In this document: positions 1,335 through 1,697 of the stretch, one piece after another | Layout of the letters: every line of letters starts with the position of its first letter | Position numbering within the stretch: the first letter of the stretch is position 1 | Origin: an uncultured Flavobacteriales bacterium | GTDB taxonomy: Bacteria > Bacteroidota > Bacteroidia > Flavobacteriales > BACL11 | Length of the DNA stretch: 64,000 nucleotides | Direction: 5' to 3' | Assembly: GCA_905478555.1 (NCBI GenBank) | Contig: CAJQIZ010000024.1 | Span: 1 to 64,000 of the forward strand | Made by a program: the position numbers and the translations under genes | Notes under the pieces: generated by a model | The model's database searches: none | What the model was told of the DNA's origin: nothing | Seen by the model: the letters and a program-made list of their open reading frames with translations, nothing else

Positions 1335-1472
1335 TTATTTCCTGTTTTTTAATTCAGGATCATTTTTCATGTCTTCATCTTGAGATTTATTAGCGTAATT
1401 TATCATATACAAAAGCCCAAATATATAGACTGAAAATATAACAAACCCCACTATAAGCATTCCTGATTTCAT
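1335..1472 (-). CDS. Small single-pass membrane protein
   Basis: Starting at MKSGMLIVGF the protein is 45 aa, with one membrane helix (about residues 4-25) and an acidic/Asn tail (SQDEDMKNDPEL). I chose this start rather than an upstream codon because its ATG overlaps the stop of the preceding gene as ATGA (1469-1472), a usual sign of translational coupling. No family is recognised. Confidence 0.5.
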   Translation of the reverse strand: MKSGMLIVGFVIFSVYIFGLLYMINYANKSQDEDMKNDPELKNRK

Positions 1473-1664: not shown

Positions 1665-1672
1665 CAAACGTA
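1665..1672 (-). promoter_or_regulatory. TACGTTTG -7 element overlapping a palindrome
   Basis: TACGTTTG on the minus strand fits TAnnTTTG and lies 16 nt before the ATG at 1648. Its first three bases are the last three of the 28-bp palindrome, so a protein bound to the palindrome would cover the promoter. Confidence 0.5.
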
Positions 1673-1697
1673 TAGATTATTTATAAATAATCTATAC
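1670..1697. repeat. Perfect 28-bp palindrome, candidate operator
   Basis: Each 14-nt half (GTATAGATTATTTA and its exact complement) is perfect, with no spacer. It lies just upstream of, and overlaps, the -7 element of the small membrane protein pair, in the usual place for a repressor site. It is also about 57 nt downstream of the methyltransferase gene on the same strand. A terminator role is less likely because no T-run follows on that strand. Confidence 0.6.

Follow-up and report, generated by a model that had tools for sequence, protein, structure and literature searches.

A perfect palindrome before two small membrane genes in a Flavobacteriales bacterium: a probable light-regulon operator shared with proteorhodopsin genes

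Why should a perfect 28-bp palindrome lie immediately before two small, overlapping genes of unassigned function in an uncultured Flavobacteriales bacterium, and what reads it? The window analysed here is the whole stretch of 64,000 nucleotides that carries the site, and an earlier note, made from its sequence alone, had described the palindrome, remarked that such symmetry is unusual even in AT-rich DNA, observed that its end forms the first bases of a promoter element, and proposed that a regulator encoded elsewhere binds there and blocks the two coupled genes. Our essential contention is that the palindrome is one copy of an operator that many marine Flavobacteriales also keep in front of proteorhodopsin, carotenoid and light-damage genes, and that it is probably read by a vitamin B12-based light sensor of the CarH/LitR type, a reading to which we would give a probability of about 0.75.

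The palindrome and the small membrane genes

The features that concern us are these.
1670 to 1697, no strand assigned: perfect 28-bp palindrome, GTATAGATTATTTA|TAAATAATCTATAC, with fully complementary arms and no spacer; an operator of the TGTWTA-N18-TAWACA class, in which the conserved parts are the outer arms GTATA/TATAC and T8/A21.
1665 to 1672, minus strand: TACGTTTG, matching the flavobacterial sigma-A -7 box TAnnTTTG (PMC9723704).
1469 to 1648, minus strand: gene for a 59-aa small membrane protein (SMP1), conserved in Flavobacteriales, with its ATG at 1648.
1335 to 1472, minus strand: gene for a 45-aa small membrane protein (SMP2), whose start overlaps the SMP1 stop as ATGA at 1469 to 1472.

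The palindrome described in the earlier note is real. It is the only perfect even palindrome in the window with arms of 12 or more, the next longest having arms of 11, and in 557 first-order Markov simulations of 64 kb, arms of at least 13 were seen 0.0018 times per window and arms of at least 14 never; the extrapolated expectation for the latter is 0.0009 per window and 0.024 per 1.79-Mb genome. Although the window is 69% A+T and a search of the genome (44 contigs) returned no second copy within 3 mismatches, these figures, together with the spacing controls described below, make it very unlikely that the palindrome is a chance feature of AT-rich DNA. As the note stated, TACGTTTG (1672 to 1665) shares its TAC with the end of the palindrome, so that the site overlaps a -7-like element of the kind used by the primary sigma factor, although the promoter itself was not mapped. 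The note had proposed a search for further half-sites; within the window, half-site matches with up to 2 mismatches numbered 8, two of them the palindrome's own arms, against 3.3 expected, and 4 of 100 shuffles also reached 8.

The membrane character of both small proteins was judged from their sequences by eye. SMP1 matched nothing in Pfam (E<=1), NCBIfam (E<=1) or PHROGs (E<=0.01), and SMP2 gave only matches below the curated cut-offs; the pair recurs in relatives. SMP1 is also encoded on contigs labelled as uncultured viruses in IMG/VR (104 relatives, of which 80 were kept; for example L129:3001-3455, L172:3001-3428 and L186:3001-3407, where L numbers denote individual fetched loci), and the six that were read also have an SMP2-like gene. 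One of these, L110, has a minor-coat-protein-family gene (phrog_1644) nearby, but no INPHARED phage record matched the one query tried, and whether the contigs are phages was not examined further. None of the 51 distinct IMG/VR upstreams of SMP1 carries the dyad.

An alternative is that the inverted repeat acts in RNA, as a hairpin or as a terminator of the gene upstream. The minus strand does fold into a hairpin with a 13-bp stem (-12.3 kcal/mol, z -4.46, with 0 of 200 shuffles as good), and an upstream gene on the same strand, at 1754 to 2329, ends at 1754. However, a scan of 1200 to 2400 found 0 terminator-like sites, that is, no G+C-rich stem followed by a T run, and in relatives the arms are complementary while the three central pairs are so in only 3 to 6 of 15 sites. 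The upstream gene, which resembles lipid N-methyltransferases (OlsG/PmtA models, below cut-off), is patchy, being found in only 5 of 60 genomes at E<=1e-10 with the window's own included, while the dyad stays with the downstream gene; and the dyad also lies between divergent genes (proteorhodopsin/PTPS, proteorhodopsin/Blh and merR/crtI). We consider an RNA function very unlikely.

A dyad of fixed geometry in related genomes

The earlier note had named absence from relatives that keep the same two genes as the observation that would overturn its reading, and we looked for the site accordingly. SMP1 was found in 16 of 60 related genomes, the window's own included, and in 153 named contig places, of which 80 were kept. 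Upstream of many of these the full palindrome is not conserved, but a dyad of exactly its length is, for example GTATAACT-N12-AGTTATAC or GTATAGCT-N12-ATCTATAC. When the core G[TC][AT]TA-N-TA[AT][AG]C was sought at every gap from 8 to 29, it was found at gap 18 in 11 of 17 places of the window's family (own genome included) and in 15 of 78 distinct named upstreams, against at most 1 and 2, respectively, at any of the other 21 gaps; the two sets overlap in part. The 15 named loci are L030 to L034, L036, L037, L042, L050, L061, L078, L081, L085, L083 (Kordia) and L108 (Polaribacter). Of the six family places that lack it, none was seen in L008, L011 and L012, L013 contains Ns, and L014 and L015 miss the core pattern. 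The other 63 of 78 named upstreams lack the dyad directly before SMP1, although in L041 one lies upstream of two further genes, about 0.8 kb before SMP1, so the site is conserved in a part of the relatives only. The note's interpretation, an operator over the promoter of the coupled genes read by a regulator encoded elsewhere, is supported by this comparison; what could not be seen from the window is that the conserved part is the outer arms at a fixed spacing and not the whole palindrome, and that the site belongs to a wider regulon.

The same geometry emerges when the arms are defined differently. In 789,860 bp of named loci, TGTATA-N18-TATACA occurs 9 times and TGTTTA-N18-TAAACA 11 times, with at most 1 at any other gap from 4 to 30; of five further arm definitions (GTATAA, GTATAR, GTTTAAC, TGTTTAA and GTTTAA), four peak at the same geometry, with up to 3 elsewhere, and GTTTAAC gives single hits only. 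In 52 genomes of the window's family, GTATAACT-N12-AGTTATAC with up to one mismatch occurs in 36 places, against 10 for the reversed pattern. In the window's own genome, by contrast, GTATA-N18-TATAC occurs 3 times against 4 for the reversed pattern, so the own-genome count alone shows nothing; the three are the window site, one inside an ORF, and one on contig C13 (20366-20393, locus L280), where GTATAGATATTTATAGAAAATATTATAC lies about 24 bp before the ATG of a predicted secreted protein, a possible second regulon member that is not above chance by count.

Across a set of 15 sites the outer arms and T8/A21 are invariant or nearly so (A21, T24, A27 and C28 are invariant or 14 of 15), positions 6, 7, 22 and 23 vary, and the centre pairs poorly, so the perfect symmetry of the window's copy is the extreme of a looser operator. 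These sites were chosen by resemblance to GTATAACT and their conservation is partly built in, although positions 6, 7 and 8 entered the score equally and yet only 8 is invariant; left out were L008, L011, L012, L013, L015, L017, L037, L083, L085, L108 and duplicates.

Genes that share the dyad

Reading the neighbours of fetched sites in the window's family gave proteorhodopsin, 6-pyruvoyl-tetrahydropterin synthase (PTPS), YceI-like proteins, glutathione peroxidase, CIA30, an azurin-like cupredoxin and some surface proteins, and one example of each named family was confirmed by Pfam; the targets identified by Pfam, by one or two examples each, match PF01036, PF15461, PF01242, PF00255, PF04264, PF08547, PF00875 and PF01227. 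BirA, Fur-type, CRP/FNR-type and other operators, which had been weighed on general grounds only, were set aside when the targets turned out to be light-related genes. A UvdE gene follows the SMP pair in L004. In the named relatives L031 and L032 a proteorhodopsin gene with its own dyad lies about 4 kb from the SMP pair, and in L017 (contig C13 of genome G036) one dyad lies between divergent genes for proteorhodopsin and a distant SMP1 relative (35% identity), so that one site could serve both.

Nine of 10 distinct proteorhodopsin upstreams have the dyad at gap 18, with at most 1 at another gap. Four of these loci (L210, L211, L222 and L337) had been fetched because they carry a dyad; of the other six, five have it (L017, L031, L032, L050 and L224, the last being the window's own genome, with GTATAACTTTTATAGTAAATAACTATGC) and L065 does not, while L033 was left out because only 95 bases lie before its gene.

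In named loci of other families the arms are TGTTTA/TAAACA, and the site precedes PTPS, DUF2452, fasciclin and SMP genes among others. Exact TGTTTAA-N16-TTAAACA occurs in 69 of 196 genomes of the order; by a table summed by hand there are 133 places against 11 for the reversed pattern in 40 genomes of one family (here f3, probably Flavobacteriaceae by inference), 34 against 2 in 39 genomes of f8, 0 against 5 in 38 of f6, and 0 against 1 in 18 of the window's family. We examined 63 distinct f3-type sites out of about 174 places (by hand sum), drawn from 30 returned loci and from 40 stretches that we picked from part of the match list. Sixty are not inside an ORF of 100 aa or more and 3 are; within 1.6 kb, 14 have a fasciclin gene, 13 a MerR-B12 gene, 12 crtI, 8 a TetR_C_23 gene, 4 a photolyase-family hit, 1 proteorhodopsin with Blh and 1 FolE, while 15 intergenic sites have none of our query genes. 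In L341 (1675-1854; genome G159) a 59-aa protein with weak resemblance to SMP1, judged by eye, follows an f3-type dyad. The crt/photolyase clusters that carry the dyad in L331 and L342 may be of the same kind as the photolyase gene cluster enriched in proteorhodopsin-positive Flavobacteriia, reported in 2018 (PMC5932025); that account describes gene content, and neither 'MerR' nor 'transcriptional regulator' was found in its text.

The candidate regulator and its rivals

MerR-family hits occur in 48 of 52 genomes of the window's family. Those of about 290 aa carry MerR_1 (PF13411 in the four scanned, L257, L258, L260 and L265) and B12-binding_2 matches (PF02607, above its cut-off in L257, L258 and L260 and below it in L265), and the two searched match Thermus CarH (5c8d) in two stretches (E 3e-13, 3e-14). 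Of the W..EH and ExHxIG motifs of the cobalamin site, EH and ExH are kept in 10 of 10 aligned rows, the W in 8 and the IG in 9, so that the regulator in relatives has the architecture of a CarH protein. These genes lie next to crtI in many fetched loci, and in others beside DUF2452 or Fpg-like genes. All 10 MerR-B12 flanks examined in the window's family carry the dyad at gap 18, against at most 1 of 10 at any other gap, which, with crtI beside 12 of the 63 f3-type sites, places the dyad at carotenoid genes and at the carH gene in relatives, though not at the window's own site. The 10 flanks come from roughly 17 long MerR hits, and their windows of about 130-340 bp were set by hand, one (L269) differently in two scans.

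Known CarH operators of Thermus, Bacillus megaterium and myxobacteria share with the consensus half-site of the dyad the TnnACA recognition element, and with the present site overlap with a primary-sigma promoter element and, in relatives, carotenoid genes and the carH gene as neighbours. They are built of 11-bp direct repeats of nAnnTnnACAn, three or four in tandem in Thermus and B. megaterium (PMC8156234, PMC9304148), whereas here the site is 28-30 bp in all and two elements face outward as an inverted repeat with N18 between the hexamers, their centres about 20-21 bp, or two turns, apart; the gene set also reaches proteorhodopsin, fasciclin, pterin and small membrane genes. The consensus half-site fits TnnACA, and the conservation of A21, T24, A27 and C28 with the variability of positions 22 and 23 is as in the CarH repeat, but positions 25 and 26, free in that repeat, are fixed here (15 of 15). 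In the window one arm reads AATCTATACAA, which fits nAnnTnnACAn, and the other AATCTATACGT, whose last A is G; TATACA or TAAACA in both arms is frequent in relatives, but 4 of 15 left arms read GCATA, which breaks ACA, and in f3-type sites A at position x2 of the element is not enriched (56 of 140 half-sites A, 51 T), so whether each half-site holds the element is left undecided by these sequences. For CarA, a B12-independent CarH paralogue of Myxococcus xanthus acting on the same operator as CarH (PMC8156234), two inverted repeats were proposed, one overlapping the -35 region, although the same paper suggests that CarA too reads direct repeats (PMC9304148); arms and spacing were not compared base by base. 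Operators of classical MerR proteins are likewise (pseudo)palindromes within or over the promoter (PMC8156234), but their dyads are shorter than the 28-30 bp seen here, where the half-sites are about two helical turns apart.

We propose that two DNA-binding domains of a CarH-type MerR protein would bind the arms, each in this view an outward-reading copy of TnnACA (one base off in AATCTATACGT). A dimer or tetramer bound to both arms on one face of the DNA, with adenosylcobalamin and in the dark, would cover the -7 element and keep RNA polymerase off the SMP1-SMP2 promoter, while light would break the AdoCbl bond and release it, so that the pair would be made together with proteorhodopsin in daylight. 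The same 30-bp dyad would control a regulon of proteorhodopsin (in one case with retinal-forming Blh), crtI, the MerR gene itself, pterin genes, photolyase, oxidative-stress, fasciclin and small membrane proteins. What our analysis demonstrates is the site, its conservation in part of the relatives, its fixed geometry, its overlap with a -7-like element, its recurrence at these genes and the CarH architecture of the neighbouring regulator; that this protein binds the dyad, that it represses, that B12 and light control it, and that the window's own organism possesses it are inferences drawn from the CarH family, since neither binding nor light response was assayed.

The main weakness is that no CarH-type gene was found in the window's own genome (98.98% complete), either by PF13411 at E<=1e-5 or with the same-genus protein at E<=1. 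A MerR hit in a 308-aa frame was rejected as the regulator because it lies among recombinase-like genes and has no B12 domain match; a 303-aa MerR-like gene between recombinase-like genes (by eye), in L255 (contig C31 of the window's genome) and L261 (contig C1 of genome G015), looks like a mobile cassette. CrtI is also missing, although proteorhodopsin and Blh are present (L224 and L281, contig C4). As merR and crtI are neighbours in relatives, a single assembly gap would explain both absences, but this is not shown, loss cannot be excluded, and the organism may use outside carotenoid. Co-occurrence of the dyad and a long MerR among the 52 draft genomes is only moderate (14 both, 5 dyad only, 13 MerR only, 20 neither; one-sided Fisher p = 0.017); genomes were called MerR-positive from open-frame length (190 aa or more, leaving out the recombinase-flanked genes of the window's genome and G015 and the 154-aa gene of G007) in a list compiled by hand, and only the fetched genes were read.

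It is possible, though we think it unlikely, that the same regulon is read instead by a TetR-type repressor (TetR_C_23, PF17931), since TetR repressors commonly use palindromic operators. Of the 8 f3-type sites with a TetR_C_23 gene within 1.6 kb, 6 also have a TIGR01777-like epimerase gene and 2 a DUF2911 gene, with the site between divergent genes where the arrangement was read (the TetR genes at L334:1539-2195, L331:8025-8684 and L342:7544-8227 are divergent from the epimerase gene, with Pfam applied to the L334 pair). This falls short of deciding whether the dyad serves as a tetR gene's own operator: MerR-B12 lies by 13 of the 63 sites and by the dyad in all 10 loci examined in the window's family, where a TetR_C_23 query hit no fetched locus, whole genomes not having been searched, and both arm versions keep TnnACA.

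Similarly unlikely is a B12-independent switch read by shorter MerR proteins. A 219-aa CarH paralogue (L274:1936-2592, L268:1599-2255 and others) lacks most of the C-terminal cobalamin-binding part and is possibly CarA-like; it lies near dyads in 3 of 6 flanks, and in genomes G013, G031 and G035, and a 112-aa MerR is present in the window's genome, where the MerR-B12 protein was not found. However, the ~112-aa MerR occurs in most genomes of the family, including many without the dyad, and the 219-aa form was not found in the window's genome either, while 3 of its 6 flanks lack the dyad, against none of the 10 B12-type flanks.

How proteorhodopsin expression is controlled in Bacteroidota is, to our knowledge, an open question, and a fixed, searchable operator at proteorhodopsin, blh, crtI and the regulator gene makes the matter directly testable, since the light regulon of a genome can be predicted from it. 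If our reading is correct, light use in abundant marine bacteria would be tied to vitamin B12 supply, and an inverted-repeat binding mode, not described for CarH in the literature we consulted, would be added to the family. Searches of the literature, judged by titles and the opening of abstracts and with most subscription papers beyond their reach, listed no description of this motif (PMC7064467 and PMC9478572 were also consulted). On the broadest interpretation, which we regard as somewhat more likely than not, Flavobacteriales control proteorhodopsin, retinal and carotenoid synthesis, photo-damage repair and the small membrane pair through one B12-dependent light switch, the arm sequence having shifted between families (TATACA to TAAACA) at constant spacing; the small membrane pair would then be a light-induced partner of proteorhodopsin, which marine phages have taken without the switch.
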